64,000 nt of DNA from Terrimicrobium sacchariphilum (GTDB lineage: Bacteria > Verrucomicrobiota > Verrucomicrobiia > Chthoniobacterales > Terrimicrobiaceae): NCBI RefSeq assembly GCF_001613545.1, contig NZ_BDCO01000002.1:3162001-3226000 (forward strand), written 5' to 3'. Below the pieces are notes generated by a model. The model searched no databases. It was not told the DNA's origin and was given only the letters and a program-made list of their open reading frames with translations. Both the position numbers and the translations under genes were made by a program. Positions 25,914 to 47,002 of this stretch are shown here, one piece after another; the stretch's first letter is position 1; every line of letters starts with the position of its first letter.

Positions 25914-25918
25914 GAGGA

Positions 25919-26572: not shown

Positions 26573-28050
26573 TGCGTGCGGTTTACCTCAAAGCGGTCCA
26601 TCAGCCAATCGAGTTGCGCATCGCGGGCGACCTTTTCGGGTTCCAGCCCCGAGGACCGCCGCAGGCCATCGACCTTCCAGCGAATGGTGCGCCCGTTCTC
26701 GTCCTGGGCGTGGTCGTAGGCGACGATGGCGAGCAGGTCGAGGAGTTCGTCCGTGTTCTCCACGGCAAAGTCGCCTACCGCGCCCTTCTCCCCTTTTTTC
26801 GGAAGAAACTTCGCGACCAGTTTGGCGGCGCGCAGCGGGGTGAGGGCCAGCCTCTGGCGTTCGCGCAGGGCGGCGAGCGCAGCCGATTCGTCCTCCGGCG
26901 TGGCCCGGCCGGTGGCAAAGGAAAGGTCGGCGGGGGTGCGACGCTTGTGCATTTTCCAGAGCGACTCGGTGCCGTGCAAAAACCGCGTCTCCGGGCAAAG
27001 CGGGCGGAAGTCCGGTGCGATGTTGGCAAAGATGCGGAAATGTCCGCCGCCATGGGCGTGGTTGATCGCGTCGCAGTATGCCCTGACGAGCTCCGGTCGG
27101 CGGCCACGAATCTCGGTCTGGTAGCGGTAGCGCTGCTGCGAGAGACGGTTAAAGGCGGCCATGCGTTCGTCGATGGCACGCGCGATCTCGCCCAATCCGC
27201 CCAGGCTTCGTTCCAGCCGCAGCAAGATCGTGTTGGCCCGCGTCGCTGCTTCGGCCTCGTCGTAGCCATAATGTTCGCGTAAACCCTCCGCCAGCCTGTC
27301 GCGGGTCAGCGGATCGTCCCGCCCGTCGCTCACCCTGGCCCGGGCGGCGCGAAGCCGGGAAATCAGCCCGCCCTTGCTCAGCACGTCGTAGCAGACCATG
27401 TGCTGGCCTCGGGAAAACTCGGTGTAGAAAACCTGCAGCGTCTCCAGCGGGGACTCAGAATGCCGCTGGCGCATCTCAAAGCTCGCGATCAGTTTCTCCA
27501 CCGAGTAAAGCTGCGACACCGCGAGATCGAGCCGCTGGTTCAAATCATGCACTGTCCCCCGCAGGTCGTCGCCACTCTGGGTCAGAGGATCGAGGGCGTG
27601 GTTGCGCTCCAGCGTTTCGCAGACTCCGCGCAGTGTATCAGCAAAGGCCTGAAGTTCAGCAACTTGATCTTCCACCAGTGTGCGAAGCATGCCCAGAAGC
27701 AGACGCAGCCCCGGGGAAATAATGATGCGCCGATCGTGCAACCCGAGCGTCTGCTCCTCCACCCAGCCCGCGGCAAGGAGCTTGGTCAGGAAGACACTGG
27801 CTCGCTGGCGGACATCGCGCAGCAACGCCCCCTCATCCTCGTCAAAATGCACGGATGGATGCGCCAGCAGCACCTCACGAATGATTTGCTGCGCATCGAG
27901 TAGCGGCAGCCGTCCCGCCAACCCTGCCTCCTCCTCCAGACGACAGGCGCAATCGACATAGACAGGCGCAGAGGGGCGGGTCAACGGCCGGAAGAAATCC
28001 GCCGAAACCGTCCTGCTCAATCGAGTGCTCAGAGGGATCTCAGATGCCAT
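26569..28050 (-). CDS. jetA: JetA-like kleisin (MukF/MksF-type) subunit
   Basis: The 493-residue product starts at the ATG at 28050 (MASEIPLSTRLSRTVSADFF). It has an N-terminal winged-helix region (LLDAQQIIREVLLAHPSVHF, then SVFLTKLLAAGWVEEQTLGL), a helical middle with SQLYSVEKLIASFEMRQRH, and a C-terminal domain ending in AQLDWLMDRFEVNRTQ. This resembles the JetA family (DUF5716-like), the kleisin of Wadjet-type complexes, and gene order jetA-jetB-jetC agrees. It is the first gene of the operon. A frame extension to 28200 crosses a run of ten C and is not used. Confidence 0.85.
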   Translation of the reverse strand: MASEIPLSTRLSRTVSADFFRPLTRPSAPVYVDCACRLEEEAGLAGRLPLLDAQQIIREVLLAHPSVHFDEDEGALLRDVRQRASVFLTKLLAAGWVEEQTLGLHDRRIIISPGLRLLLGMLRTLVEDQVAELQAFADTLRGVCETLERNHALDPLTQSGDDLRGTVHDLNQRLDLAVSQLYSVEKLIASFEMRQRHSESPLETLQVFYTEFSRGQHMVCYDVLSKGGLISRLRAARARVSDGRDDPLTRDRLAEGLREHYGYDEAEAATRANTILLRLERSLGGLGEIARAIDERMAAFNRLSQQRYRYQTEIRGRRPELVRAYCDAINHAHGGGHFRIFANIAPDFRPLCPETRFLHGTESLWKMHKRRTPADLSFATGRATPEDESAALAALRERQRLALTPLRAAKLVAKFLPKKGEKGAVGDFAVENTDELLDLLAIVAYDHAQDENGRTIRWKVDGLRRSSGLEPEKVARDAQLDWLMDRFEVNRTQ

Positions 28051-28134
28051 GTTGGGGTCTTCGAGGGAACTCGCCTTGGTATCCCTTTGCCGATGGTGCG
28101 ACAAGGATTTCCGGCTTTTCCGCTGGAAACCACG

Positions 28135-28144
28135 CCCCCCCCCC
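28135..28144. repeat. Homopolymeric C10 tract (G10 on the jetA strand) upstream of jetA
   Basis: Ten consecutive C residues lie between the start of the jetA-like gene (28050) and that of the divergent small gene (28245), 85-94 bp upstream of the jetA start. Tracts of this length are prone to slipped-strand changes. Placed in a promoter region, a length change could alter expression; this is only a possibility. Confidence 0.8.
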
Positions 28145-28244
28145 GATCCCGCCTTCAGGCAGCAGCGCCATTTCCCTTGTCGTTTGAAGATTGCGGCCAC
28201 CGGGTTTCAACCGTAAAAACACGCTGCTGCCGCAAATATCGTCC

Positions 28245-28637
28245 ATGCCCATTGATTCATTGAAAATCGAAGAATCCGCCAAATCTCTAGTTTCCCAGTT
28301 GGTCCTGAAAGAGCTTCCCTTGGCGGTCTACGACCCAAACCAACCCCGCCGCGTTCGCGTACCGGTCACCTCGTTCACGATAGAACTCCTTGAAATCGAG
28401 GAAGATGAGGGTCGTATAACCGTCTGTGCCGCAGGACCGGTCATCTTGCAAACGCCGAACGGACCTTGGGAGAATCATCTCCGGCTCTATGCACCCATGG
28501 AGATCGCAGAAGGAACCTGTCGCCTCGGCAACCGGGACGACGTGCGCACCGCTTATATCGTCCTAACCGATTTCGACCTCGGCACTTGCAAGGAAACTGC
28601 TGCTCTGGCCAATGCCGAGTCAGACAGCGCCGGTTAG
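28245..28637 (+). CDS. Small protein of unknown function
   Basis: The 130-residue product starts at ATG 28245 (MPIDSLKIEESAKSLVSQLV). It is acidic, has no signal peptide or membrane helix, and is rich in beta-type patterns (PVTSFTIELLEIEEDEGRIT, then AAGPVILQTPNGPW). Codon use is normal, so I think it is real. I do not recognise it. It is divergent from jetA and convergent with the PhcR-like gene at 28660, 22 bp away, so it belongs to neither operon. A ligand-binding or PilZ-like small domain is possible, but nothing confirms it. Confidence 0.6.
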   Translation: MPIDSLKIEESAKSLVSQLVLKELPLAVYDPNQPRRVRVPVTSFTIELLEIEEDEGRITVCAAGPVILQTPNGPWENHLRLYAPMEIAEGTCRLGNRDDVRTAYIVLTDFDLGTCKETAALANAESDSAG

Positions 28638-28659: not shown

Positions 28660-29775
28660 TTAGTCAATCAAATCGACCAGGAGAGTTGCGACGAACTCGA
28701 TCTCCTTGTTCAATCCGATCCGGCAGTCCACGGTGCCATCCGCGTACTCGGCGATGCGGCGACATGTAGCCAGCTCCAGTCCCAGACTCTTGCTGAACCC
28801 GGTGCTTTCTTCGGTCGGTCGGAAGAAGTAAGGCTCGAACAACTGCTCGATGCGCGAGATTCCGGATCGCCCCTGGATCAGCCCCGTATTTTTCACAACC
28901 ACAGTGAGACGTTGTGCCTCCGTGTCGGACATATACTCCACGTTGCCTTGCAAAAGCACATTTCGCGATTGATGTGAGGCAATACGCACCAGTTTCCTGG
29001 CGATCATCTGGATCGAGCGGGAAGCTCCACGCAAACGCAGATCAAGCATCTCGTCCTCCTCGAGCCTGACAACGAGCTCGCGGGAAGCCAAAGGTGCGAC
29101 AGCCTTGCTCAGGACGTTCCGCAAGGTGAAATCCTCTTTTACGCCTTCGCTGGCCAAGTGAGATGCCCCGATATAATCCACGATCTCCATGAGAATGTCA
29201 TGGAGGTGGCTTCCGGAGTTCTGGATATTATGGACCCAGGCCTTTTGCTCTTCGTCGAGGTCGACCTCCGACAATAATTCCGAGAACCCGAGGATCGAAG
29301 TCAACGGAGTGTTGAACTCATGACAAAGCAGCGACAGGAAGTTATCGTGCACACCCATCAGGCGTTGCTGCATCTCCCGCGTCCGGCGGGTATTCTGGTC
29401 GTAGTCCTGGATGCCTTTGGAAATGACCTCCTTGAGGCGGTTCTGCCGGAAAGGCTTGGTCAGATAGCTGTAGGCTCCGAGATTGAGGGCCTCGATGGCA
29501 GACTCGGTGCTCTCATAAGCAGTGAGGATCACTACGTTCTGCATGGCATGAAGCTGCTTGAGCCGCCGGAGCGTCTCGAGGCCCGAAATGCCATCCATCC
29601 GGAGATCGAGCAGCACCACCGGAAAGTCCTCCTGTTTTGAGAGTTCTATTGCCTCTTCCCCCGAGGCTGCAGCCGTGATGTCGTACTCGTCATTCAGGCA
29701 ATAATCGAGCGTCTCCCGAACCAGAGGTTCGTCGTCAACTACCAGTACTTTCCTATGGGGGCGCTCAGCGATCAT
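28660..29775 (-). CDS. Response regulator with histidine-kinase output domain (PhcR-like)
   Basis: The 371-residue protein has an N-terminal receiver (phospho-acceptor Asp57 in VVLLDLRM, Lys107 in LTKPF). A kinase-type region follows with an H-box SLLCHEFNTPLTSI (His152) and a C-terminal ATPase-like part with FSKSLGLELATCRRI. The canonical N-box is not clear, so the ATPase may be degenerate. A receiver joined to a kinase is the architecture known for PhcR of the Ralstonia Phc quorum-sensing system. It is the last gene of the operon 42339-28660 and overlaps the previous gene by 4 bp (ATGA). It probably relays the phosphoryl signal; its partner is not proven. Confidence 0.8.
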   Translation of the reverse strand: MIAERPHRKVLVVDDEPLVRETLDYCLNDEYDITAAASGEEAIELSKQEDFPVVLLDLRMDGISGLETLRRLKQLHAMQNVVILTAYESTESAIEALNLGAYSYLTKPFRQNRLKEVISKGIQDYDQNTRRTREMQQRLMGVHDNFLSLLCHEFNTPLTSILGFSELLSEVDLDEEQKAWVHNIQNSGSHLHDILMEIVDYIGASHLASEGVKEDFTLRNVLSKAVAPLASRELVVRLEEDEMLDLRLRGASRSIQMIARKLVRIASHQSRNVLLQGNVEYMSDTEAQRLTVVVKNTGLIQGRSGISRIEQLFEPYFFRPTEESTGFSKSLGLELATCRRIAEYADGTVDCRIGLNKEIEFVATLLVDLID

Positions 29776-30977
29776 GACCGGGACAAGGTATTGTATGGCT
29801 CCGGAAACGACTTGCCGAGAAAATCCGTTCCCTCAAGAGGAAATCGCCGCCCGTTGATCGGCAGAAAGATACGAAAGCAAAGCCCATCTCCCTCCGCCTT
29901 TCGATGCACCTCGAAGGTTCCTCCATGATGGCGTGCGATAAAGTAGCAGGCAGCCAGGAACACCCCGAACTCCCTAGGATTTCCGCCTCTTACGTAAAAA
30001 GGCAGGAGGAAATTCCCCGGATCAACGCTCGCAGAAACCGCGCTGTAATCCTCAAACTCGATATCCACCCCCTGGCATTCGCCATTTCTTAAGTGCTTGG
30101 AAAACACAATACGCAGAAGGCTATCGGGCGGAAGCGAGACCGCCTCCTCGGCGATCATGAACCGGAACAGCTTGCCGATTTGACGCGCAGAACCATGGAT
30201 TTCCGGCAGATCCGCCGGAATGAGCGCCTCAATCTGCAACTGCTTCTGCTCACGTATGGAAACCATTTCCGCCAGGGTGCGATTGAATACAGCCCGCAAA
30301 TCAAGGACTTCCCGATCACAATCGCGTAAAGGTGCGCTGATCTGCTCAAACTCTTTTAGGGTCCGCGAAACCTCATGAATATGGTTGCGGACTTCCTGCA
30401 GGAATTCCAAAGAGCAAATCTGGTTCACCGGCTTGTTGGCGATCAACTGGTCAAGCAGGAAGGTCATCGGACACAGGGCGTTGTGCACATAGTGCCCGAG
30501 TCTCGCCGCGATCAGGCCCACGTCATATACCCGGTCATCTGTGACAGGATGCGCCATTTCATCCCCCGGGAAGACCAGCCCTGGTCTGCCCGGCAGCCGC
30601 CGATTTCGCATTTCCAACGCCTCTACGAGAGTGCGTTCGAGGTCACCGATATTCCATGGCTTGGCCACAAAGGAATGGACTGCTCCGACGTTGATGGCTG
30701 AGACGAGAACGTCGAAATCGGAGTACGCGGTGGTCAATATTCTTGCCGTGCCCGGGTATTTGTTGCGGACGACAGTGAGAAGCTCGACCCCCGTGGCTTC
30801 AGGCATTCGCTGATCCGTAACGACCGCGCCGATCCGGGGGGCATGTTCGTCAAGCACCTGGAGGGCCGCGGCGGCAGAGGAAGCGGCATAGATGGGAAAG
30901 CGCTGTCCGAAGGCTTTGGAAAAGTACTTCAGCGCAAGCGCCTCATCATCGACCAGTAGTATGCCTTTTTGATCCAT
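29772..30977 (-). CDS. Response regulator with degenerate kinase-like domain (PhcQ-like)
   Basis: The 401-residue product has a receiver beginning GILLVDDEALALKYF, with Asp55 in VVTDQRMPEATG and Lys106 in VAKPWN. The ALKYF, TDQRMPE and KPW features mark the PhcQ-type receiver class. The remaining 270 residues look like a decayed kinase: ARLGHYVHNALCPMTFLLDQ stands where an H-box would be, and FGVFLAACYFIARHHGGTFE where the G-box would be. It has no HTH, so it should act by protein contact. It precedes the PhcR-like gene with a 4-bp overlap and follows its paralog by 21 bp. Confidence 0.8.
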   Translation of the reverse strand: MDQKGILLVDDEALALKYFSKAFGQRFPIYAASSAAAALQVLDEHAPRIGAVVTDQRMPEATGVELLTVVRNKYPGTARILTTAYSDFDVLVSAINVGAVHSFVAKPWNIGDLERTLVEALEMRNRRLPGRPGLVFPGDEMAHPVTDDRVYDVGLIAARLGHYVHNALCPMTFLLDQLIANKPVNQICSLEFLQEVRNHIHEVSRTLKEFEQISAPLRDCDREVLDLRAVFNRTLAEMVSIREQKQLQIEALIPADLPEIHGSARQIGKLFRFMIAEEAVSLPPDSLLRIVFSKHLRNGECQGVDIEFEDYSAVSASVDPGNFLLPFYVRGGNPREFGVFLAACYFIARHHGGTFEVHRKAEGDGLCFRIFLPINGRRFPLEGTDFLGKSFPEPYNTLSRS

Positions 30978-30998
30978 CCGGGAATTCAGCTGCCGAAG

Positions 30999-32018
30999 CT
31001 ACAACCGGGCAATATCCCAGGAGGAAAACTTCCCGGCCAGTGCGTCTATCACGGCATCCTCGGAGGCCGTGGCAGGAACCTCCGCGGATATGTCGCCAAT
31101 CGTAACGCTTGCAGCTGTATTGGCTGCAGCGAGTGCGTACAGACACTCAAAGAAACGCAGCGAGGACGTCTCCGTGTTGCCTCCCAGGAGGAGTCCAAAC
31201 AAATCCCGGTGCAGCACCGCATTTGGGGAGGACGGGGTTGATGATACCAGGGAAAACTCCCCCGCCGGCGTCAGCCCATGTTTCTCGGAGAGGTCGACCA
31301 GGAGTGCCTGCCAGGCCGCGGAAGGAGTGGGGGGGGTATTGCGCAGCGTCTCCAGCGCTGGCGATAGGTTCGCTGCGCTGGCAAACTCGGAACGAATCAG
31401 CGAACCGATTTCAAAGCTCCGGGCTGTCGCCGCAGGCGAAGCCAGAAAGGACGGATTGGCTGGCAAAGCCTGGATCGCCGCAAGCAGCGCGCGCTGAAGT
31501 ATTGCACGGGCCGCAGGCTCCCAGGACTGCGAGGAAAGCAGCAGCCATTTCACCCGGTCACTGCAGAGGATGCGCTGCAAGGTTGCCATCTTGAGCGCCA
31601 ACAGTTCGTTACGCTCGGTCAGGACCTGGAAGTAATCCGCCGCTCGCTGAAGCACCATCCCGAGGTCGCGAATCTCCCAGGGTTTGACCACATACTGATA
31701 GATGTAGCCCTTGTTCACCGCCTGGATGGCACTCTCCAGATCGGAGTATGCCGTGGTAATGATGCGAACGATCGAGGGATATTGATCCCGCACGATTCCA
31801 AGCACCTCGGCACCGAGCATCTCCGGCATTCGCTGGTCGGAGATCACCACACCGATCCTCGCCGACTCCCTTTTCAGCACCTCGAGCCCTTCCCGCCCCG
31901 AACTCGCGGTGAAGATCTCGAATTTCTCGGAGAAAGCCATGCGAAAGTACTTTAAGGCCTTTTCTTCGTCATCAATGTAGAGGATTCCGCAACGCGGATT
32001 CGAATCGTTGGTCGTCAT
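30999..32018 (-). CDS. Response regulator with unusual C-terminal domain (PhcQ-like paralog)
   Basis: The 339-residue product has a receiver GILYIDDEEKALKYF with Asp61 in VVISDQRMPEMLG and Lys112 in VVKPWE, closely matching the PhcQ class and its downstream paralog. The C-terminal 200 residues (DYFQVLTERNELLALKMATL, then ERNELL-type coil and Ala-rich helices) show no HTH and no complete ATPase motifs. It is the fourth gene of the operon, 8 bp after the hybrid kinase gene. In Ralstonia a PhcQ protein is needed for the output of the quorum signal; a similar relay role is inferred here. Confidence 0.78.
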   Translation of the reverse strand: MTTNDSNPRCGILYIDDEEKALKYFRMAFSEKFEIFTASSGREGLEVLKRESARIGVVISDQRMPEMLGAEVLGIVRDQYPSIVRIITTAYSDLESAIQAVNKGYIYQYVVKPWEIRDLGMVLQRAADYFQVLTERNELLALKMATLQRILCSDRVKWLLLSSQSWEPAARAILQRALLAAIQALPANPSFLASPAATARSFEIGSLIRSEFASAANLSPALETLRNTPPTPSAAWQALLVDLSEKHGLTPAGEFSLVSSTPSSPNAVLHRDLFGLLLGGNTETSSLRFFECLYALAAANTAASVTIGDISAEVPATASEDAVIDALAGKFSSWDIARL

Positions 32019-32026
32019 ATGTAGGG

Positions 32027-34636
32027 CTAGTGTTCGGCGAGTGGCAAAGTGATGGTGAAGACAGCTCCGCCGCCCGGCCGGTTATCTGCGGTAATGCTGC
32101 CGTGGTGAGCTTCCATGATGGTGTGGCAAATGCTAAGTCCCATGCCCATTCCTGATCCCACATCGCGTGTGGTAAAGAATGGCTCAAAGATCCGGCCTAT
32201 GATCATTTCGGGAATGCCTGGGCCGCTATCGGCAAAGTCGATCCTGACAGTGTCTCCGGCAACTGTAGCAGACACGGTGATTTCCTTGGTGCCACCTCCC
32301 GGCTTTTCCTGGATAGCCCGCGCTGCGTTGGCAAACAGGTTGATAAACAGATGAATCATCTGGGTCTTCTGGCCTTGAATAGCCAGACCGGCCGGGATCT
32401 CCGACCTGACCTCGATGCCCTGCAAGTCGCGCGCCATGATCTTCCGCGCAGATTGCAGCACCTCCTCCAGTGTAAACACGGAGGAGACCCCGGCTCGCTC
32501 TGGATAGGCGAACGTTTTAAGATTCGTCACCACATCACTCACCCGAGTCATGCCCTCCTCGATGTCGGCAATAACCTCCTGCATTTCCGGGCTGAGCTGC
32601 CCCTGGAACTGCTTGGCGAAGCTGACCGCGGCGAGAGTGTAATTCAATGGATTGTTGATTTCGTGCATCAGACCCGCAGACAGGGATCCAATGGCATTCA
32701 TCTTCTCACTTTGAATGAGCATGATCTCCGTGCTCTTCAATTTCTCCATCGCAGCGAGGAGTTCGTCATTGCGAGCGCGCAGATCCGCCTGCAGGCGCAC
32801 CGACCTCAGCAGATTGTCTATACGGGTCAACACCTCGATGCTGCTGAAGGGTTTTGTCAGAAAATCATCAGCTCCCGCCTGGAGGGCATCGATCTTCGAC
32901 TGCTCGTCGACTCGCGCGGTCAGCAGGACGATCTTCAGGTCGCTGTTCTGTTCGCTGGCACGGAGTTCCTGACAGACCGTCAGGCCATCCCTGCCCGGCA
33001 TCATCCAGTCGAGCAAAACGATCGCGGGCTTGTGCTCCGCAACGAGAGCACTGACATGCACCCCATCCGGAGTTTGGATCACCCGGTATTTGTCCGCCAG
33101 CAGCGAGACGACATAGTTGCGCATGTCAGGTTCATCATCTGCCACGAGCACGGTTTTCTCGCCCTGTCCGACGATGGAAAATTCAAGCTCGGACCCACTC
33201 TCCGGCGCACTCCGCCAACTGCGATCCGCCGACCGAAATGCCTGCTCAAAAGGCTCATCTCCAGCTCCTGCCGCCCCAGGCTCCAGGGTCTCTATTCCCT
33301 CCGCCCCATCATCCAGGGGCAGACAGACACGAAATGTACTCCCCTGCCCGACCATACTTTCCACCTCGATACGCCCGCCATGCTCGACAACCAGCTCCTT
33401 TGCCAGCGCCAGGCCGATCCCCACCCCCTGACTACGGTTGGCCAGGTTGCTCCGGACCTGATGAAAACGGTCAAAGATACGAGGCAGTTCGTCCTCGGCT
33501 ATACCCACTCCCGTATCCTCCACCTCGATGCAGGTCTCCCGATCACGAGAGAACCAGCGTACGGTGATCAGACCACCGGAGGGCGTGTACTTGAGTGCGT
33601 TGGTCAGCAGGTTGACCAGCACCTTCTCCAGCCTGGATGGGTCGGCAATCAGCTTCACAGACGATTGCCTTTCCTCGATTTTCATCCGGAGATTCTTGGA
33701 AAGCCCCAGGTGTCGCACCGAATCGACGATCCCCTTGATAAAGGCCGTGGTCGGGATCTCCCGCTTGCGCAGGACCTCGGCTCCCTGATCGAGCCTCGTC
33801 AGGTCGAGAAGATCATTGATGAGCTTGAGCAGCCGCAGAGCGTTGCGATGGATCAGGATGATCCCGTCGTGCACCTTCTGGTCAAGGGCCTCGCTCCGGC
33901 TGAGGATCGTCTCGACCGGGCCGAGAATAAGAGTAAGAGGCGTACGCAGTTCGTGACTGACATTGGAAAAAAACTGGGTCTTCAACCGGTCGAGATCCTG
34001 CAGTTCCCGATTTTGCTCATCGAGTTGATGGCGCAGCCGAAACTCTTCAAACCTCGCCTTGGCCAGATAAAACGTGATGCCGATACAAACCGTCGCGGTA
34101 ATCACGAGGAAAAAGCCGCCAAAGCCCAGCAAGGGAATAGATCCCGGAGCCTCAAAGTCCGGATTCAGGATGCAGGCCAGGAGAAATGCCAGTATGGAAA
34201 GAAAGCACATGCTCGCGGTCTCCACGACAGTCCAGGGCGAGAGGATCGACCAGCAGGTAAGCACCAGGATCAGACCGACAAAGTAGGGCGACTTCGCCCC
34301 CTCGGTCCGATAGATCATGAAACACATGGCGGAGTTCACGCTCAACGCTGAGAGCACGCCCAAAGACTTGATCACCGTCAGCCTCTGGCTCTTCCGCTCC
34401 AGGTAAAGCACACCGATCAGCAGGATCAGAAAGGCCGCAGTGGCCAGTCGCACCCCGAGAAACGTCAGAAACTCGTGCGGATACAGAAAGTAATCGAGGA
34501 CGAATCCACCCGGCACGACCAGCACCGAGAGGCCACTGAGTACCATCAGACCATACGCGAGCTTCTCGGAGTTATAGGCACGGTATCTCAGGCGCAGGGC
34601 TTGATCCTTGGCCTCCGCAACACTGTCGACACTCAT
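32027..34636 (-). CDS. Hybrid sensor histidine kinase with two transmitter modules (PhcS-like position)
   Basis: The 869-residue protein starts with a membrane region of about six helices (residues 25-195, beginning LAYGLMVLSGLSVLVV). A first HisKA domain (FFSNVSHELRTPL, His228) and ATPase domain (NLLTNALKYTP, then GVGIGLALAKELVVEHGG) follow. A receiver (TVLVADDEPD, Asp543 in LLDWMMPG, Lys595) and then a second H-box (GLMHEINNPLNYT, His658) with an ATPase G-box (GMGMGLSICHTIMEAHHG) complete the chain. The membrane part is a plausible receptor for a lipophilic signal. The gene overlaps the methyltransferase gene by 4 bp. Its position after the PhcB-like gene matches phcS. Confidence 0.88.
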   Translation of the reverse strand: MSVDSVAEAKDQALRLRYRAYNSEKLAYGLMVLSGLSVLVVPGGFVLDYFLYPHEFLTFLGVRLATAAFLILLIGVLYLERKSQRLTVIKSLGVLSALSVNSAMCFMIYRTEGAKSPYFVGLILVLTCWSILSPWTVVETASMCFLSILAFLLACILNPDFEAPGSIPLLGFGGFFLVITATVCIGITFYLAKARFEEFRLRHQLDEQNRELQDLDRLKTQFFSNVSHELRTPLTLILGPVETILSRSEALDQKVHDGIILIHRNALRLLKLINDLLDLTRLDQGAEVLRKREIPTTAFIKGIVDSVRHLGLSKNLRMKIEERQSSVKLIADPSRLEKVLVNLLTNALKYTPSGGLITVRWFSRDRETCIEVEDTGVGIAEDELPRIFDRFHQVRSNLANRSQGVGIGLALAKELVVEHGGRIEVESMVGQGSTFRVCLPLDDGAEGIETLEPGAAGAGDEPFEQAFRSADRSWRSAPESGSELEFSIVGQGEKTVLVADDEPDMRNYVVSLLADKYRVIQTPDGVHVSALVAEHKPAIVLLDWMMPGRDGLTVCQELRASEQNSDLKIVLLTARVDEQSKIDALQAGADDFLTKPFSSIEVLTRIDNLLRSVRLQADLRARNDELLAAMEKLKSTEIMLIQSEKMNAIGSLSAGLMHEINNPLNYTLAAVSFAKQFQGQLSPEMQEVIADIEEGMTRVSDVVTNLKTFAYPERAGVSSVFTLEEVLQSARKIMARDLQGIEVRSEIPAGLAIQGQKTQMIHLFINLFANAARAIQEKPGGGTKEITVSATVAGDTVRIDFADSGPGIPEMIIGRIFEPFFTTRDVGSGMGMGLSICHTIMEAHHGSITADNRPGGGAVFTITLPLAEH

Positions 34637-36030
34637 AGAGGCTTGCGGATCGTTAGGAACACGTTTACCCCGGTGTCATCTGCGAAGACCTCCCCCTCGG
34701 ATCCCTTGGGAGCCAGGCTGAGCAATTCTTCCTCGTTCCGATAGATCAGATACCACTCGAGCAGATGCTCCATGAGGTAGCGCTCGGGGTTGTTCGGATG
34801 CACGTTGGTCGTAAGCAACAGGCCGCCCGGGCGCACCCACCGGTAATAAAGCTCGAGCAGATTGCGGCAGACGTTGTCCGGGAAGTAATCAAACAACCCT
34901 GCGCAGTAGATCATGTCGTAGCTGGGCAGGAAGCCCTCGCTCTCCAGATGAATGTCCTTGAGCAGGTCGTCGATGGACTTCTGGATAAACTTCAGTGCCG
35001 GCTTGTTTCCAGACTCCTCCACCGCCTCGGCTGTGCGGAGCTTCACGTACTCCAGCGTCTCCTCATTGAAGTCCATGAGGTGAAGTGCGCTCTGGCTGGA
35101 AAGCGGATTGCGGCGAATGAATCGCTGAATCTCCACGGCGGGGCCGCAGGCGACCGTAAGCGCTGTAAAAACACGCTGCTCATCGTTAACGCGCTCGGCC
35201 TCCTCGCCGAGCGTGCGCTCCATGATCGTGACACGGTTGCGATGTGCGATACATGCCGCCACGCTGCTGGTGAGTTCGTGAAAAATCCGCGCGTACGTGG
35301 TCGATCCCGTGGTCTGGGACTCCTGGAGGAGCATATTCACCATCTCGTAATCACCCGCATATCCGAGCGGCTTGTAAAAGGTCCTCCAGACAAAGGGTGC
35401 GCAGAGCAGATAAGGGTGAATCTCGCGACGGGCGAATGCCTTGTAGATCATGGAGTCCTCCTCCGGGACCCTGGCGGCCTCGTCCTGGAAAAGATACAGG
35501 AGCTGCGAGAGCTTCTCCGTCACGACCTTCTCGATCGACTCGCGAAAACGCGCTGCCTTTTCGGGGTGCGCGTTGATGTCGCCGATGATGGCTGTCTCCG
35601 CCTCCTCGATCCACCGGCTTGTTTCCGCCAGAAAGTTGGAGAATTTATTGACCGCCAGCTGATAGCCGTCGGAGATGTTTAGTCCGCTCTCCCAGTCACT
35701 AATGAATTTCCCAAACTCCTCGCTCAACGCAGGGCCGGGTTCCAGGTGATTGAGAGCGCTCCACGAGTCAATCAGGGTGACGGAAACGATCACCATCAAA
35801 CCGGTGGAGACGATGCTCGTGACGACCCCTCGGCCTCTGTAAATCACACGCTCGCCGCGCATGACCGAGATTTCCTGGAGAACCTCGCTCATCTGGATCA
35901 GGGAGAAGGGATTATATACCTCGAAAACCGCCACTGATCGCGAGATGTGAATCAGCGTTCCACGCCCCCGGATCCCGGAGGTGTTAACGAAGGCTACGAG
36001 GCTATCAATTCCGGCAAGTGCTTTTTCCAC
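34633..36030 (-). CDS. PhcB-like SAM-dependent methyltransferase with N-terminal PilZ-like domain
   Basis: The 465-residue product starts with GTG at 36030. Residues 1-90 form a beta-barrel that looks PilZ-like (GTLIHISRSVAVFEV, then RGRGVVTSIVSTGLMV), though the usual c-di-GMP RxxxR motif is not clear. The C-terminal region carries the signature of the EF/3-hydroxypalmitate methyl ester synthesis family: FYKPLGYAGDYEMVNMLL (223-235), NRVTIMERTL, a SAM-binding glycine loop ACGPAVE (294-300) and Asp320. PhcB of Ralstonia makes the methyl ester of a 3-hydroxy acid as a quorum signal. The gene follows the PKS gene by 27 bp and overlaps the kinase gene. Confidence 0.85.
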   Translation of the reverse strand: MEKALAGIDSLVAFVNTSGIRGRGTLIHISRSVAVFEVYNPFSLIQMSEVLQEISVMRGERVIYRGRGVVTSIVSTGLMVIVSVTLIDSWSALNHLEPGPALSEEFGKFISDWESGLNISDGYQLAVNKFSNFLAETSRWIEEAETAIIGDINAHPEKAARFRESIEKVVTEKLSQLLYLFQDEAARVPEEDSMIYKAFARREIHPYLLCAPFVWRTFYKPLGYAGDYEMVNMLLQESQTTGSTTYARIFHELTSSVAACIAHRNRVTIMERTLGEEAERVNDEQRVFTALTVACGPAVEIQRFIRRNPLSSQSALHLMDFNEETLEYVKLRTAEAVEESGNKPALKFIQKSIDDLLKDIHLESEGFLPSYDMIYCAGLFDYFPDNVCRNLLELYYRWVRPGGLLLTTNVHPNNPERYLMEHLLEWYLIYRNEEELLSLAPKGSEGEVFADDTGVNVFLTIRKPL

Positions 36031-36057
36031 GGTCGATAAAGGTCTTGGTAGTCAATG

Positions 36058-39000
36058 TTAAGTGCCCCACAGACGGCTTTCCGCCAAGGTGGCCAACTGT
36101 CGGAGAGTTGGCCCCTTGAGGAATTCCATCGCCGAGAAATTCAAGCCGATTTGCTCCTTAATGCCGAGACTAAGTTCCAGCACCATCAGAGAATCCACCC
36201 CCATCTCGTTGAGCTTGCGGGTCATTGGAATCGTATCCTTCGACATCCGAAGAGTTTTGGCGAGAACGTCTTGCAGGCGATCCTCGAGAACACGCATCCG
36301 TTGCTCGCGAGAAGCATCCGTCAATTCTTCAAGGATGCGGGCCATCACCTCGTTGCCAGCCGTTTGGGAACGCATCGTCTGATCGCGGAAAAGCGCATGG
36401 CCGGCGAGCTTGGGATTGGCATCACGCCATTTCTCCCAATCCATCAGAAAAACGCCGATCTGCTCTTTTCCCGCCCTCAGAACCGTTCCCAGCGCCTGCA
36501 GCGCCTCGCGGTTGCCCAGGCCGGTTATGCCGGAGGAAGCCAATACAGTGCCCAGTCTTTCATCCCGGGCCACCACGCCGGATTCCGCCAGTGCCCCCCA
36601 GTTGAGCGAGATTGCAGGTATGCCTCGCGCCCGGAGAACGGTCGCGAGCCCGTCCAGTGTGCGGTTTGCTCCCACATAGCTCGTCTGTCCGCGGTTTCCA
36701 ATCACCGAGGAGATCGAAGAGTAGAAGACGAGGAAGTCGAGTGTCGTAGAACCTTTTACGGCCGCGGCGAGGTTCAACGCGCCGGCCACCTTGGGAAGGA
36801 AAACCTTGCGGAAACGCTCGGCCGTCATGTCTGCCATCATTGCGTCATCCAGCACCATTGCTCCGTGGATCACACCACGGAGAGCATAAGGGGCGGCATT
36901 AGCCTGGCAGACGAGTTCCGAGACCTGGGCGGCATCGGTGACATCGACCGATAGCACCTCCACCTCGGCTCCCGCCGCCTCAATGCGAGCCATCGCCTCC
37001 GACAGACCTCCAGCCTTTTTGCCAGATCGGCTCACGAGATAGATTTTGCCAGCCCCCTGCGAAGCGAGCCACTCAGCCGACACCACGCCAAAGCCCGAAG
37101 TTCCACCTGTGACGATGTAGCTTCCATCGCGATGGCAGACCGGCGCGGGCTGCTCCTTGACCAACACCTCGACCTCGCCCTGCGAAAAATCCACCAGCAG
37201 CTTGCCAATGTGCTGACTGCGCTCCATCTCCGCAAAGGCCGCCTTGATCTCCGCCGCGGGATAAACCCGCACCGGGCCGGGCTTGAAATCTCCCTGGGCG
37301 AAATGATCCACGACCGCGCGCAGCGTTTGTTGAACAAACGAAGGCCGTTCCCTGGCGAGACGATCCATGTCGACCGAAGCAAAGATGAGATTACGGTTGA
37401 AGGCGCGGAGCGGAAGGCTGTTGTCCTCGGCGATGTCCTTCTTGCCGATCTCAATATACCGTCCACCGGTGCGTAGCAGATTGAGGCTGACATGCATGGC
37501 CTGTCCGGTCTGGGCGCCGATGACGACATCCACACCCTCGTTGCCCGTATCCTCGCGGATGCGCTGGCCAAAATCGAGCGTACGGGAGGAGTAAACATGA
37601 CTGATCCCGAGACCCCTGAGGTACTGCTGCTTTTCCTCCGAGCCCGACGTGGCGTAAATCTCCGCACCACGCCAGCGCGCGATCTCGATGGCGGCCATGC
37701 CGAGACCTCCCGAGGCGTGATGTATCAGCACCCTCTCGCCACGTTGGAGATTTGCGATGGTGACCAAACCATGGTAGGCAGCCAGATAAACGACCGGCAC
37801 CGCCGCCATGTCCATTCCGAAGCCCTGAGGTATCCTGACCGCAAAGCCTTCGTCAATGGTCGCGATACTGCGAAAGCCTCGCGTCAACACGGCAATAATG
37901 CGGTCTCCGGCGGCAAAGGCGCTGCCTGGGCCGGCTCTCAACACCACTCCCGCACACTCCATCCCAAACTCCCCTTCGTTGTACGTCCCCTCGACCGCTC
38001 CGGGGTGAAGTCTGCCCTCGACCTTGAGGAGATCCTTGTAATTCAGCGCGCTCGCATGGATGCGCACCTCGATCTGCCCGGGACCCGGGTCCACCCGCTC
38101 CGATGGTTCATAGTACAGCGAGTCGATCTTTCCCTTGATTCCGACCTGAAGCTCGACCGGTTCATCAAGAGAGCGAGTCTCGACGTGGACCGCTGAGTTT
38201 CCTTCGTCGAGAGACTCCAGGATGTTCTCCAGTCGCTCTCCGGCACGATAGGCGATCTCGCCATTGCTGCCGGCGGCCAGTTCGTCAAGCACCGCCTGCG
38301 ACCCGGCGGAGTCCAGGTCGATGGAACGGAAGCGTATCGCGTCGTATTCATTCTGGGCGACCATGCCGATGGCATTGAGGGAAAATGCCAGCCAGTTCGT
38401 GATGATCTCGCCATCATTCACCGCCTTCGCGCCGACTGTGACCGAGGTGATGTCGACCACCGGTTCAGGCATCATGGCTGCCGCCTGCAATAGAGCGACC
38501 AGACGCTCGGACAACTCCGACGCCGCCAGGATGTCCTCCATCACCTGCCCGCCGGACCCCCAGAGCAGGATGATCCGCCCCCGGTTGGCGAGAGCGGCCG
38601 CGCCAAGTATTGAGGAAAAATCTCCCCGGCTCGCTCCTCCCGCAAACTCCCGCACGATCAGTTCTGACCCCGGTAACGCCGCCGAGAGCTCGTTAGCCAA
38701 TGCGAGATCGGAATCCCGGGGGTCGGCAAGTATGACGGCTCCGGAAACGGACTCCCTGCTCTCTCCCGAGAGCGGAGCCTGTTTCCAATGGAGCTGATAG
38801 TAGGGTGATTCCGCAGATTCACCGGCTTTCATGTCGATGGCTTGAAGCGACATATGCCGCCCATGAGCATGCACGACGCCCTGGGCATCCATCAGCCAGA
38901 CGTGAGCCACCAGCCGAGACGAGGTTCGCGATGTCAGCTCGCCGTAGACAAACAGCTCTTTCGAGCCGGGACGGGAATGATACTCAAACTGCTCGATGGA

Positions 39001-42000
39001 AAATGGCACGTACAGCCCGGCCATCCCCGAACGGTACAGAATGGGCTGGATCGCCGCGTCAAAGAGCGTCGGATGGAGGAAATGCGTCTCGTCAGCCAGA
39101 GTATCCGAGGCATCGAGCCTCAACAGATAGCTATCCTCGCCGATCCAGATATCCCTCGTCGGGCGAAAGGTCGGGCCATAATGGAGTCCCCGGCGTGATA
39201 GATCGTCGTAAAAGGCCTCACGATCCACCGGCGTCGCGCATTTCGCCTGAAGCGCAGCGAGATCAAGCTTCCTGGCAACTGGTTGGGCCTGAGGCAGCAA
39301 ACGCCCGCGACAGTGACGCAAGTTCCCAATCTCCTCTCCCTCCGTGCGGCTCGAAATGGAAAAACGCCCCTCCTCTGAGTCGTACTCTGTCACGAGATAC
39401 TGGAGCTTGGAGTAATCCACCACCAAGACGCGCTCAAAGCTGACGTTTTCGAGTACGACGGCAACGCTGGAGTTCACCTGCTTGTTCAGGCTGATCGCCG
39501 CCTCGATGTATCCCATACCGGCAAAGACCGTCTGATCTTGCACGCCATGATCGAAGAGAAACGGGAAGTAGTTGCGATTGATCTCCACCTCCCAAGTGGG
39601 ATTGAGTGCGATGAGCGAGCGGTTCAAATAAACCGGCCCCGGCAGACCGAGACGCTCCATTTTGGATCGCTCCGACTCCACCCACAACGTCTCACGCTGC
39701 CACGGATATTGCGGCCCCGGTAGAAATACGCCATGCGCCGGCGCGAGCGCCGCCCAGTCGGGATCGTATCCCGCACAGTACAACTCCCCTATCGTTGAAA
39801 GCAGGCGAGCCATCTCCGGCTCAGCCCGGCGCAACGAGACAAAACACCGCACCTTTTGCTCCAGATGCGCAGCGCATTCCTTGATCGAGTTGCCGAGCAC
39901 CGGATGCGGCCCCACCTCGAGGAATGAGGCAAAACCGTCCTCGATCAGTGCCTGGATCGCTGCGGCAAACCGCACCGGCTGGCGGACGTTGTGCCACCAG
40001 CACTCAGCCGACCATTCCTCGGCGGGAATGATCCTTCCATAACCGGTCGAGTACAGGGGAATACGCGCCGGTTTTGGCGCCAACCCGGACAGCGCGGTGA
40101 GCAGGGGCTCGCGCAGCGGCTCCATCTGCGGACTGTGATAGGCGACCTCGACGCGCAGGAACTTGTTGAAGATTCCGCGCTCCTCCAGACCGGCGGCAAT
40201 GGCTTTGAGCTGTTCGGTGTCGCCCGACAAGGTGACTGCGTTGAAACTATTAACAGCCGCAATGGACACCCCGGGAGCGTTCCCCAGCAACGCCAGAGCG
40301 TCTGCCTCGGGCAATCCCACCGCCAACATGGCCCCCTGCCCGGCAGCGCTTTGCTGGAGCTGGCTGCGATAGTAGCTCACGCGGACCGCTTCCTCGAGAG
40401 AGTAGACCCCGGCGACGTAGCTTGATGCCACCTCGCCTACGCTATGGCCAACGACTGCCGAAGGATGAATCCCATACGATGCCCACAAGCGAGTGAGCGC
40501 CACCTGCAGGGCGAAATTCGCGGGCTGAGCCAGTTCTGTCCTCGCCATGCGGGACGAAGCCTCATCCGCCATCATCGCTTCCTTGAGCGACCACCCGGCG
40601 AGGGGTTGGAAGATCGCGTCGATCTCATCAAGCGTCTGCTCCACGATGGGCTGGGTCTTGACGAGCTCCTGTCCCATTCCCCACCACTGAGGCCCCATTC
40701 CGGTATAGACAAAGACCAGCCCCGCCCCGGGCTCTGCTGATCCCGCTCCTGTCACGAGACCATCGTGAGCCTCTCCGGTCGATGCGGCAATGAACTGCGC
40801 CCGCAAGGTTTCAAGGCTGGAAGCCAGTGCCACTCCGCGAAAGTTCAAGTGGCTGCGACGATGCGCCGCGGTATGGGCAAAATCTTCCAGCGTTCCATAT
40901 CCCGGCTGTCCCAGCAAAAAGGCAAACTTACCCGCGAGATCCCGCAAAGCCTTGTCACTTTGCGCAGAAAACGGGATGACCCTCACCGCGCTTCCGCCGT
41001 CGGCGGCGGGGACGGCTTTTCGATCTGGCGCCGACTCCAGCAGGACATGGGCATTCGTTCCTCCATAGCCAAAGGAATTGATCGCCGCATAAACCGTCGG
41101 CTTCTCGGCCGGAGCCGGCAGGGCCTTGGTCTCCTTGGCCACTTCGACGCAATACTCCGAAAAGGGGATGTTTGGATTGGGCTTCTTGAAGTGAAGATTC
41201 TTTGGCACCTGACGGTTTTTCAGGATGCCGATAGTCTTGAGCACTCCCGCCACCCCGGCGGCTGCCTCGAGGTGTCCGATATTGGATTTCACCGATCCGA
41301 CAATAAGATTGCGGGATCTTCCCTCGGAGAAGCTGCGATGGAGCGCTCCGAGCTCTGCGGAATCGCCCGCCTGCGTGCCAGTGCCATGCGCCTCGACATA
41401 ATCCACCTCCGCGACCGGCACCCCTGCTGTGCTGTAAACCTTTCGGATCAGTTCCTCCTGGGCAGCACTATTAGGAAGCGAGATGCCATCCGTATGACCG
41501 TCCTGGTTGACCCCGCTGGCCCGGACCACGGCGTGAATCTGGTCTCCGTCCGCGAGAGCATCCTCCAGCTTTTTCAAGAGCAGCACGCCCGCTCCTTCTC
41601 CACGCCCATAACCGGCCGCCGTTTCGTCAAAGGTATGGCACTCACCATGAGGCGAAAGGAAATGCCCCTTGCTCATGATGATCGGAAATTCCGGACGTGT
41701 CATCACGTTCACCCCTCCCGCGAGAGCCATGCGGCACTCTCCAAGGAGCAGACTCTGGCACGCATAGTGCAAGGCGACCAGCGAGGATGAGCAGGCTGTA
41801 TCCATCGTCACACTCGGGCCGCGCAGATTGAAGGCATGCGACAGGCGGTTGGAGAGTACCGTCATCATCACCCCGCCCGCAGAGTGCGCATTGACCAGAT
41901 GCCGGTTGGAGGGCTGCGCCTGCATGACCATGTGATCCAGGCAGAAGCCGCCGACAAAAACACCCGTGCTCGATCCCGACATCTTGTGCAGGGGATAACC

Positions 42001-42339
42001 CGCGTCTTCAAAAGCCTCCCAAGCCGACTCGAGCAGCAAGCGCTGCTGCGGATCGAGGGACTCCGCCTCACGCGGAGACATTCCAAAAGCAAGCGGATCG
42101 AACTGGCGGACGTCCTGATCCAGATAGGAAGCCTTCGCGGCGTAGCTCTTGCCCGGTCGGTTCTGATCCTCGTCGTAGTATTGCCGCCAGTCCCAGCGGT
42201 CTTTCTTCAGCGCCTTCGACGCGCTGCCGCCTCGCACCAGAAACTTCCAGAATGCGGCGAGGGATGTCGCGGAAGGAGGCATGCGACATCCTGCGCCAAC
42301 GATCGCAATCCTCCGGTCACTTTGGGGTTCCAAACTCAC
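36058..42339 (-). CDS. Highly reducing type I polyketide synthase (KS-AT-DH-ER-KR-ACP)
   Basis: The 2093-residue protein starts with GTG at 42339. Domains in order: KS 8-440 (DTACSSS with Cys183, EAHGTGT with His318, NIGHLE); AT about 545-845 (GHSVGE, Ser633; VAYHS substrate motif, closer to malonyl than to YASH-type methylmalonyl); DH about 900-1190 (His931 in FDHGVQDQTVF, second motif LFDAAIQP); a non-catalytic spacer region; ER about 1390-1730 (HASGGLGMAA); KR about 1740-1960 (VTGGTSGFG, FYSSIS, TSYVGANR); ACP about 2010-2090 (GVDSLM, Ser2050). There is no thioesterase and no loading module. The set predicts an iteratively extended, fully reduced acyl chain left on the ACP. The neighbouring methyltransferase could finish the product. 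Confidence 0.93.
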   Translation of the reverse strand: MSLEPQSDRRIAIVGAGCRMPPSATSLAAFWKFLVRGGSASKALKKDRWDWRQYYDEDQNRPGKSYAAKASYLDQDVRQFDPLAFGMSPREAESLDPQQRLLLESAWEAFEDAGYPLHKMSGSSTGVFVGGFCLDHMVMQAQPSNRHLVNAHSAGGVMMTVLSNRLSHAFNLRGPSVTMDTACSSSLVALHYACQSLLLGECRMALAGGVNVMTRPEFPIIMSKGHFLSPHGECHTFDETAAGYGRGEGAGVLLLKKLEDALADGDQIHAVVRASGVNQDGHTDGISLPNSAAQEELIRKVYSTAGVPVAEVDYVEAHGTGTQAGDSAELGALHRSFSEGRSRNLIVGSVKSNIGHLEAAAGVAGVLKTIGILKNRQVPKNLHFKKPNPNIPFSEYCVEVAKETKALPAPAEKPTVYAAINSFGYGGTNAHVLLESAPDRKAVPAADGGSAVRVIPFSAQSDKALRDLAGKFAFLLGQPGYGTLEDFAHTAAHRRSHLNFRGVALASSLETLRAQFIAASTGEAHDGLVTGAGSAEPGAGLVFVYTGMGPQWWGMGQELVKTQPIVEQTLDEIDAIFQPLAGWSLKEAMMADEASSRMARTELAQPANFALQVALTRLWASYGIHPSAVVGHSVGEVASSYVAGVYSLEEAVRVSYYRSQLQQSAAGQGAMLAVGLPEADALALLGNAPGVSIAAVNSFNAVTLSGDTEQLKAIAAGLEERGIFNKFLRVEVAYHSPQMEPLREPLLTALSGLAPKPARIPLYSTGYGRIIPAEEWSAECWWHNVRQPVRFAAAIQALIEDGFASFLEVGPHPVLGNSIKECAAHLEQKVRCFVSLRRAEPEMARLLSTIGELYCAGYDPDWAALAPAHGVFLPGPQYPWQRETLWVESERSKMERLGLPGPVYLNRSLIALNPTWEVEINRNYFPFLFDHGVQDQTVFAGMGYIEAAISLNKQVNSSVAVVLENVSFERVLVVDYSKLQYLVTEYDSEEGRFSISSRTEGEEIGNLRHCRGRLLPQAQPVARKLDLAALQAKCATPVDREAFYDDLSRRGLHYGPTFRPTRDIWIGEDSYLLRLDASDTLADETHFLHPTLFDAAIQPILYRSGMAGLYVPFSIEQFEYHSRPGSKELFVYGELTSRTSSRLVAHVWLMDAQGVVHAHGRHMSLQAIDMKAGESAESPYYQLHWKQAPLSGESRESVSGAVILADPRDSDLALANELSAALPGSELIVREFAGGASRGDFSSILGAAALANRGRIILLWGSGGQVMEDILAASELSERLVALLQAAAMMPEPVVDITSVTVGAKAVNDGEIITNWLAFSLNAIGMVAQNEYDAIRFRSIDLDSAGSQAVLDELAAGSNGEIAYRAGERLENILESLDEGNSAVHVETRSLDEPVELQVGIKGKIDSLYYEPSERVDPGPGQIEVRIHASALNYKDLLKVEGRLHPGAVEGTYNEGEFGMECAGVVLRAGPGSAFAAGDRIIAVLTRGFRSIATIDEGFAVRIPQGFGMDMAAVPVVYLAAYHGLVTIANLQRGERVLIHHASGGLGMAAIEIARWRGAEIYATSGSEEKQQYLRGLGISHVYSSRTLDFGQRIREDTGNEGVDVVIGAQTGQAMHVSLNLLRTGGRYIEIGKKDIAEDNSLPLRAFNRNLIFASVDMDRLARERPSFVQQTLRAVVDHFAQGDFKPGPVRVYPAAEIKAAFAEMERSQHIGKLLVDFSQGEVEVLVKEQPAPVCHRDGSYIVTGGTSGFGVVSAEWLASQGAGKIYLVSRSGKKAGGLSEAMARIEAAGAEVEVLSVDVTDAAQVSELVCQANAAPYALRGVIHGAMVLDDAMMADMTAERFRKVFLPKVAGALNLAAAVKGSTTLDFLVFYSSISSVIGNRGQTSYVGANRTLDGLATVLRARGIPAISLNWGALAESGVVARDERLGTVLASSGITGLGNREALQALGTVLRAGKEQIGVFLMDWEKWRDANPKLAGHALFRDQTMRSQTAGNEVMARILEELTDASREQRMRVLEDRLQDVLAKTLRMSKDTIPMTRKLNEMGVDSLMVLELSLGIKEQIGLNFSAMEFLKGPTLRQLATLAESRLWGT

Positions 42340-43103
42340 CCGGGCACCTAACCAATTCCGGAACCTCTCTCCAAGTCCGAACAGAATCTCTCGACGTCAT
42401 TCCCGGCATGGTCAAAAACATCAAACTTTTTCTCCACCCCGAAACTAAGCTTATTTTATTAGCTGTCGCCTATATCATTCCCCTCCAATCGACTCGCATT
42501 CTCTCCAAAGTCACGTCCATGTCGGGAACAACGAATCCCCCACCTCGAATCACACCCGTTGATTACTTTCTTATTAATCGTAAAAATCATTCCAGATTCC
42601 TAAATTACCTCCTCCGCCCGCCCCGCAGCCCCTCCCCAAGCGGAAATCCCTCCCTCAGCAGGGAGCAGTCACATCTCCTGCCACCGGCATTCTCCACCCT
42701 TCTGAGACTAAGCCATCCCCCATTCCCATCACATAGTTCCAGCCGTCGCATACACGAAAAAACCGCCCCCATGGCAGCGACATCCGCCCGGGATTCAAGC
42801 CATATCTGGAAGCTGACTGAGCCGTCTGGCTGAGAATTATTTCATTCGGATAAAGAATGCATTCCTCTTCGCAATCTCGCCTCGCGCCTCAGGAATCCGC
42901 CCAGGAAGTCCGTTTAATAAATAAACCACAAATCACTCATCGAAAGCAATTTACATCGCACCCAAAATTCCCAACTTGCGTACACGCACGTATTTTATCA
43001 GATATCACGGAATATCGCCAAAAAAGGAAATTTCGGGTTTTTTGTTGCCAAGGTTACACTTCGATGAATTGATGTAAGTCACGTCACTCTGAAAGCTTTA
43101 GTC
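42340..43103. promoter_or_regulatory. AT-rich intergenic control region between PKS operon and LuxR-type regulator
   Basis: This 764-bp gap lies between the divergent starts of the PKS operon and the response regulator at 43104. It is much more AT-rich than its surroundings, especially 42840-43080, and I found no gene with domain content. A short inverted repeat TGCGT-ac-ACGCA sits at 42977-42988, about 115 bp upstream of the regulator start. It is the obvious place for promoters and for binding of the adjacent regulator. Short frames at 42252-42833 and 42857-43072 look random. Confidence 0.6.
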
Positions 43104-43814
43104 ATGTCCACTTCTCTCGATCTCCCGCGCATTTTGATGATCGATGATGAGCCCGACCTGCCTCAGATCGTTGAGAACCTCCTTGTGGATATTTGCACCG
43201 TGGAAGGATACCCCACCGGAGAGCTCGGCATCGAGGCGGCTGCGAGGAAAATTTTCCCTGTTGCGATAGTCGATCTTCAAATCAAAAGTCCCCAGGGATC
43301 GCAAGTCCTCCAGGGGATAGAGATCATGGAGTCCATCCGACGATCTTCGCCCTTCACACAGATCATCATCCTTACCGCCAACGCCTCCATGGAATCGGCC
43401 ATCTCGGCGGTAAACCAAGGCGCGTTTCAGTACCTCGTGAAGCCTTTTCTCCGTGCTCCGCTGCGCAAGACCATCTCGGAAGCCCTGAAGGCGTATGAAG
43501 CCGCCTTGCTGGCCGATGAACGGCTTTCGCTGACCAACGGTCATTTCCAGTCCTTCGGCCTCACTCCTCGTCTGGCCGACATTGCCGAAGGCATCCTCGA
43601 CGGGCAGACCAATGAGGAGATCGCAAAAAGGCTCAAGATCGCCGACCGCACCGTGGAAAAGCACGTGGAGCGCCTGCTCGCCCACTTTGGCATACACAGC
43701 CGTTTCCTGCTGGAGTCCAAACTGATCAAGATGCTCCGCCAATTGCGAAAAAGCGACTCCTGGTCGTTCACGCGAGGGGAATACCAGCGAAGCGAGCCAG
43801 ACGGAGACGTCTAG
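43104..43814 (+). CDS. Response regulator with LuxR-type HTH output
   Basis: The 236-residue protein has a receiver (RILMIDDEPDL, Asp57 in VAIVDLQ, Lys113 in LVKPFL) and a C-terminal NarL/LuxR-type HTH at about 153-200 (ADIAEGILDGQTNEEIAKRL, RTVEKHVERLLAHFGIHSR). It should bind DNA when phosphorylated. The receiver has an extra stretch (KSPQGSQVLQGIEI) after the acceptor site. It is divergent from the PKS operon across an AT-rich gap. No DNA-binding protein is encoded in that operon, so this is the likely output regulator of the signalling system. This link is inference from position. Confidence 0.88.
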   Translation: MSTSLDLPRILMIDDEPDLPQIVENLLVDICTVEGYPTGELGIEAAARKIFPVAIVDLQIKSPQGSQVLQGIEIMESIRRSSPFTQIIILTANASMESAISAVNQGAFQYLVKPFLRAPLRKTISEALKAYEAALLADERLSLTNGHFQSFGLTPRLADIAEGILDGQTNEEIAKRLKIADRTVEKHVERLLAHFGIHSRFLLESKLIKMLRQLRKSDSWSFTRGEYQRSEPDGDV

Positions 43815-46993: not shown

Positions 46994-47002
46994 TTATTCG
47001 AT

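Follow-up and report, generated by a model that had tools for sequence, protein, structure and literature searches.

A putative Phc-type signalling cassette with a dedicated polyketide synthase in a member of the Verrucomicrobiota

The phcBSRQ system of Ralstonia and Cupriavidus uses methyl 3-hydroxymyristate or 3-hydroxypalmitate as its signal. In the window (the whole 64,000-nucleotide stretch of DNA analysed here), genes resembling this system follow a polyketide synthase (PKS), raising the question of whether that synthase builds the acyl chain of a signal. The window is part of contig 2 in a genome of 4.75 Mb, whose nearest relatives are Spartobacteria/Chthoniobacterales. Six co-directional ORFs were confirmed at 28660-42339 on the minus strand. 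Their description in the initial annotation as a co-directional run with gaps from a 4-bp overlap to 27 bp is borne out by the coordinates, with the correction that transcription proceeds from right to left in the window, PKS first. The PKS and methyltransferase (MT) genes are separated by 27 bp, MT and hybrid kinase overlap by 4 bp, and the following junctions are 8 bp (hybrid kinase to P0004), 21 bp (P0004 to P0005), and a 4-bp overlap (P0005 to P0006). The features are as follows:

36058..42339, minus strand: type I PKS, 2093 aa, GTG start (Pfam and catalytic motifs)
34633..36030, minus strand: PhcB-family SAM-dependent MT by sequence, 465 aa
35737..36030, minus strand: MT N-terminal domain, a PilZ-like six-stranded barrel (alignment and predicted structure)
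32027..34636, minus strand: hybrid sensor kinase with a 6TM PhcS-type sensor, 869 aa (Pfam and PhcS comparison)
30999..32018, minus strand: P0004, PhcQ-like regulator, 339 aa (receiver tree, linker, and C. necator comparison)
29772..30977, minus strand: P0005, second Phc-type receiver protein with a degenerate histidine-kinase-like C-terminus, 401 aa
28660..29775, minus strand: P0006, soluble receiver + HisKA + HATPase protein of PhcR-like layout, 371 aa
42340..43103, strand not applicable: divergent intergenic region, 48% GC as compared with 60% for the window
43104..43814, plus strand: divergent response regulator, receiver + LuxR-type (GerE) HTH

For the first three genes, Pfam matches agree with the functions originally assigned: KS, AT, DH, ER, KR, and PP-binding domains for a reducing type I PKS in first position, a SAM methyltransferase domain for the second gene, and HisKA/HATPase pairs occurring twice, with one receiver between them, for a membrane hybrid kinase in third. 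Pfam also matched receivers in each of the remaining three genes, accompanied in P0006 by HisKA and HATPase.

Comparisons with the Phc system used Cupriavidus necator, not R. solanacearum, as the reference. The MT of the window, METHYLTRANSFERASE, shares 43% identity over 457 residues with the single PhcB match in the C. necator genome; both domains are conserved, the N-terminal one throughout. Its 465 aa match the 464-468 aa of Ralstonia PhcB (PhcR and PhcQ there span 368-374 and 336-337 aa, respectively; PMC8578825), and it is nested within one family tree (trees here and below are quick searches). The C. necator match sits in a four-gene set (463, 443, 378, and 335 aa) whose numbering, with the RGT arginine at 22 and the kinase histidine at 231, fits the published sites PhcB R22 (PMC6989110) and PhcS H230 (PMC11960443); a conserved arginine at 157 lies close to the published PhcQ R154 (PMC6989110). 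Pfam, NCBIfam, and PDB sequence searches placed the MT no further than "methyltransferase". By sequence comparison it is a full-length member of the PhcB family, in agreement with the initial annotation.

AlphaFold2 models of the MT (pLDDT 86.7 for the whole protein and 86.6 for the N-terminal domain) divide it into a PilZ-fold N-terminal barrel (residues ~9-88), a helical domain (~100-283), and a Rossmann methyltransferase domain (~288-462). The best structural match of the methyltransferase part is 3ocj (Z 19.8, 3.4 A, 250 residues). The barrel matches MrkH in structure comparison (Z 10.8, 2.6 A, 94 residues), and its top 25 structural matches are all PilZ-containing proteins. On these models the N-terminus of the PhcB family is a PilZ-fold barrel, a likeness of fold only; Pfam returned no PilZ match in this region of the MT. 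PilZ domains that bind c-di-GMP use an RxxxR motif preceding their first strand. This canonical motif is absent from both the window MT and the C. necator protein, and the domain is predicted not to bind c-di-GMP. The motif E-x-YNPxSxxQxSEVL is conserved in this domain across the family. Residue R23 of the window MT corresponds to PhcB R22, and the barrel places the published PhcB R22C mutation, described as lying outside any known domain, in a structural setting. The literature searched, which included few subscription papers, contained no earlier mention of a PilZ-like domain in PhcB.

The sensor and receivers extend the resemblance to the Phc system. The hybrid kinase consists of a 6TM sensor, a first kinase (H228), a receiver (D543), and a second kinase (H658). 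Its sensor and first kinase align with C. necator PhcS (27% over 451 residues), the sensor motifs LDYxxYP and SPYxxGL being common to both, and its second kinase aligns with the same protein at 40% over 260 residues, placing the HEINNP histidine H658 opposite C. necator H231. Given these two alignments, the shorter PhcS looks like the 6TM sensor combined with the second kinase. PhcQ consists of a receiver followed by some 200 aa that include no DNA-binding domain, and P0004 agrees with this: it and C. necator PhcQ are best hits of each other in both directions (33% over 223 residues). The P0004 linker is near-invariant (E135, R136, L139, K143, Q148, R155) and its C-terminus divergent; R155 stands in the place of the published PhcQ R154C mutation. 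In a receiver tree of few columns, P0004 and P0005 fall in a group of 45 rows with Cupriavidus PhcR and PhcQ (SH-aLRT 93) and P0006 falls outside it, a placement that calls for care given the few columns.

These results redraw the assignments of the initial annotation, which had placed two PhcQ-like genes and a PhcR-like receiver-kinase here. The mutual best hit and the linker indicate that P0004 is PhcQ-like; the same label does not suit P0005, in which a Phc-type receiver is followed by a degenerate kinase-like tail. The receiver would allow P0005 to be the PhcR orthologue; its kinase part is degenerate, however, and the PhcR layout (soluble receiver plus histidine kinase) fits P0006 better, whose length (371 aa, against the published 368-374) and best hit (PhcR, 30% over 164 residues) agree with it; with its receiver outside the PhcR/PhcQ group, P0006 appears PhcR-like in layout only. 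Membership of the receivers in the PhcQ/PhcR classes, as originally proposed, is supported by the tree for P0004 and P0005 and not for P0006.

The window locus and phcBSRQ thus have in common a full-length PhcB-family MT with the same N-terminal domain in one gene row, a 6TM PhcS-type sensor, a PhcS-type kinase, and a PhcQ-like receiver protein. The window locus differs in having a PKS as its first gene, a hybrid kinase containing a further kinase module and a receiver, and three soluble receiver proteins, of which the PhcQ-like one comes first. The intergenic region at 42340..43103 is probably the promoter region of both the operon and the divergent regulator. A three-genome alignment of this region contains ~80 conserved bases adjoining the divergent regulator, with no clear repeat or palindrome recognised in it as an operator. 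The divergent receiver-LuxR HTH gene, found in the genus only, is a candidate for the DNA-binding output. In the Phc system the output regulator, PhcA, is of the LysR type; no LysR gene occurs among the neighbours scanned.

The PKS has the domain order KS-AT-DH-ER-KR-ACP in Pfam, and motif alignment recovered all of its catalytic residues: C183/H318/H356 in KS, GHSVGE and VAYH in AT, and the His and Asp of DH. The further motifs are also present (HHASGGLG in ER, Tyr/Asn and LDD in KR, and GVDS in ACP). It is the sole type I PKS in the genome, where the three other ketoacyl-synthase matches are frames of 400-448 aa and a single phosphopantetheinyl transferase (a 250-aa frame) is present. We take the VAYH extender motif and GHSVGE to point, weakly, to malonyl-CoA, and the LDD motif of KR to a 3R-hydroxyl; because KR carries this motif, the product is probably 3R. 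The Ralstonia signals are (R)-forms (PMC11298618). The same domain order characterises NF041183 (the mycobacterial Pks2 layout), which the window PKS matches over its full length at 1146 bits, but this is far under the curated cut-off of 2400 bits, and the NF041183 family is not a signalling cassette. Pfam found no thioesterase or other release domain in the window PKS.

How consistently this PKS accompanies the MT was assessed from its distribution. A family-profile scan of 84,980 species genomes, from whose 575 candidate loci the 80 best were retained, was complemented by a search of 388 genomes of the phylum; remoter PhcB relatives with other PKSs may exist beyond these 80. In the loci covered, this PKS lies directly upstream of the MT on the same strand in 16 genomes, including that of the window, with gaps of 17-60 bp where measured. 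The 16 PKS-linked MTs form one branch of the MT tree (SH-aLRT 99), and the KS domains of the MT-linked PKSs form one clade (support 100) that branches broadly like the MT tree. By these trees the 16 genomes trace to one PKS-MT joining event, with the pairing co-inherited across several orders. Every MT at least 50% identical to that of the window, among the loci listed, has an upstream PKS. The boundary falls at 49% identity, where a PKS is present in some loci (e.g., L050 and L053-L056) and absent from two (L057 and L058). The best-scoring PKSs of the 388 phylum genomes are exactly those beside an MT. The predicted linkage of PKS and PhcB-like genes in related genomes is therefore upheld by these 16 genomes in one clade, and by a second PKS type described below. 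That the pairing is mere inherited baggage, with one ancestral insertion having spread with the cassette and no functional tie between its parts, would accord with a single joining event. Such an account is very improbable given that the short gaps have been kept down to ~50% protein identity, that the window PKS has kept its catalytic residues, and that the second joining was independent.

The regulatory part of the cassette has a wider distribution. A kinase lies directly downstream of the MT in 89 of the 94 informative loci. Cassettes in Planctomycetota, Myxococcota, and Gammaproteobacteria resemble the window in containing an MT, a hybrid 6TM kinase, and a Phc-type receiver in the same order; unlike the window, they contain no PKS beside the MT, which is also true of canonical phcBSRQ. 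In gene maps inspected by eye, no recurring acyl-supply gene stood out upstream of the PKS-less cassettes. This distribution bears on the view that the locus is a regulated natural-product cluster. The methyl-esterified lipid made by PKS and MT would then serve in defence or in the envelope, and the kinase and receivers would activate the cluster in response to some other cue. Product clusters often combine a PKS with a tailoring methyltransferase and two-component regulators, and in a PKS-first operon product synthesis shares a promoter with the regulators. However, Planctomycetota, Myxococcota, and Proteobacteria have the MT-kinase-receiver trio without a PKS, the trio of Ralstonia works in signalling, and the sensor domain is PhcS-type; we consider a product cluster unlikely, though a less remote prospect than inherited baggage.

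A PKS also appears to have joined the PhcB family a second time, with a different synthase. In L147, which belongs to a different class within the phylum, a PhcB-like gene (39%) and the end of a FAAL-ACP-KS-AT-cMT-KR-ACP synthase overlap, and in L076 (Pedosphaera) a synthase of this type adjoins the cassette in convergent orientation. The KS tree sets the two PKS types apart, and a single clade of L147 with the 16 PKS-linked MTs was rejected (AU p 7e-39); a single origin of the two associations is rejected on this tree test. The second association comprises these two loci, one of them convergent (L076). The relatives L145 and L073 have no PKS, and 198 genomes of the class of G370 yielded no further L147-like examples. 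By Pfam, the FAAL-type PKS has a KR and no DH or ER; its expected product, by usual enzyme logic, is therefore a 3-hydroxy (2-methyl) acyl-ACP. This is the kind of substrate proposed for PhcB (3-hydroxypalmitoyl-ACP; PMC4549310), and the agreement is our strongest reason for linking PKS output to the MT. For the L147 cassette the model predicts a 2-methyl-3-hydroxy methyl ester.

The same observations bear on the possibility that the MT methylates an ordinary 3-hydroxy fatty acid as PhcB does, and that the PKS is a co-regulated target making an unrelated compound. PhcB does use a fatty-acid-derived substrate (PMC4549310), and the genome has ordinary ketoacyl synthases. Yet the PKS sits close upstream of the MT and has been inherited together with it in several orders, a second PKS type has joined the PhcB family, and neither type has a Pfam release domain among the PKSs scanned; we regard a fatty-acid substrate as improbable, slightly more so than a product cluster. 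The persistence of the pairing in 16 genomes and its second origin with a different synthase make it probable that the signal's lipid chain is built by a dedicated enzyme and not borrowed from fat synthesis.

Gene content, homology, operon layout, catalytic residues, and the conserved and repeated PKS-PhcB linkage are observed here. On this basis we favour, as the probable reading, a cell-cell signalling cassette of the Phc kind with its own acyl-chain factory, in which the PKS would supply the MT, and the resulting ester the kinase. We infer each biochemical step, the product, and density dependence. Using malonyl units, the PKS would assemble an ACP-bound acyl chain that is largely reduced, the last round stopping after ketoreduction to leave a 3-hydroxyacyl-ACP, probably 3R. 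The PhcB-like enzyme would then methylate the carboxyl end and release a 3-hydroxy methyl ester, replacing the absent thioesterase; as Pfam detects no release domain in the PKSs scanned, the MT is the obvious off-loader. The ester would diffuse and be detected by the hybrid kinase through its 6TM domain. This kinase would relay phosphate to the soluble receivers; the PhcQ-like protein would be the main effector, and the divergent LuxR-type regulator may provide the transcriptional output. Several points count against this model. The KS-AT-DH-ER-KR-ACP synthase is equipped for full reduction, and its sequence gives no cause for a last-cycle stop at the 3-hydroxyl. Erosion of the ER motif in four related synthases means that the chain must vary. 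The second association comprises two loci, one of them convergent, and two of their relatives have no PKS. MT-regulator cassettes also exist without a PKS, so that the PKS could serve another purpose.

If the signalling model is true, Phc signalling is one branch of a broad cassette family and not peculiar to Ralstonia and its kin, and in certain branches a dedicated synthase has replaced the housekeeping source of acyl chains, which would explain how private signals could arise in individual lineages. It would also provide a candidate cell-density circuit for Verrucomicrobiota, where we found none described, and a product prediction open to direct test. More tentatively, with the chances slightly against, such loci may define a new autoinducer class of methyl esters that are polyketide-built and not fatty-acid-derived, with a PhcB-type MT off-loading a dedicated PKS. 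The class would have evolved at least twice with different PKS types, and its lineage-tuned chains (reduced, unsaturated, or alpha-methylated) would permit private signalling. No report of PhcB or PhcQ combined with a polyketide synthase was found in the literature searched, with its few subscription papers. The photopyrone and dialkylresorcinol signals of Photorhabdus are made by stand-alone ketosynthase-type enzymes and have LuxR-solo receptors. They are alike in ketosynthase-type synthesis of the signal, but do not bring together a modular reducing PKS, an ester-forming enzyme of the PhcB type, and a sensor kinase. Both are named as autoinducers in PMC13220807.

Within the 16-member clade, four Opitutaceae/Pelagicoccus synthases (L051 and L054-L056) have an eroded ER nucleotide motif, and the chains therefore probably differ by lineage. 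In the L052 record, several frames together make up the broken PKS. One member (L050) is a gammaproteobacterial MAG, reflecting either transfer or mis-binning.

PhcB-family proteins begin with a domain (window 35737-36030) that structural modeling predicts to be a PilZ-fold barrel; the canonical c-di-GMP motif is absent from this domain, and the residue equivalent to the published R22C mutation of PhcB sits inside it.

In the Opitutaceae/Pelagicoccus versions of the methyltransferase-linked PKS (loci L051, L054, L055, and L056), erosion has affected the nucleotide motif of the enoylreductase, and the PKS product is therefore probably less reduced in these lineages. At another such locus, the PKS adjoining the PhcB-like gene is broken into several frames in the record (L052:4095-9959), reflecting either decay or sequencing error.

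FAAL-type PKS genes also occur beside PhcB-like genes. At a locus from a different class of the phylum (L147:5769-14994), the PhcB-like gene is overlapped by a FAAL-ACP-KS-AT-cMT-KR-ACP polyketide synthase; in Pedosphaera (L076:9580-21039), a convergent FAAL-type PKS adjoins a PhcB-like gene and hybrid kinase. Additionally, a planctomycete locus (L068:8278-11380) carries a tandem pair of PhcB-like genes, one member of which is very divergent.

On its downstream side, the operon adjoins a Wadjet-type anti-plasmid condensin set (22572-28200, minus strand), with the following members:

26569-28200, minus strand, JetA
25919-26572, minus strand, JetB-like gene (DUF4194)
22572-25913, minus strand, JetC-like SMC ATPase

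Immediately beyond the operon end lies a short convergent ORF (28245-28637, plus strand), for which a Pfam search returned no match. Elsewhere in the window, the protein encoded at 46982-47722 (plus strand) has the C-terminal sequence VPEPSTTALLAI...RSRRR, which resembles a PEP-CTERM sorting signal.
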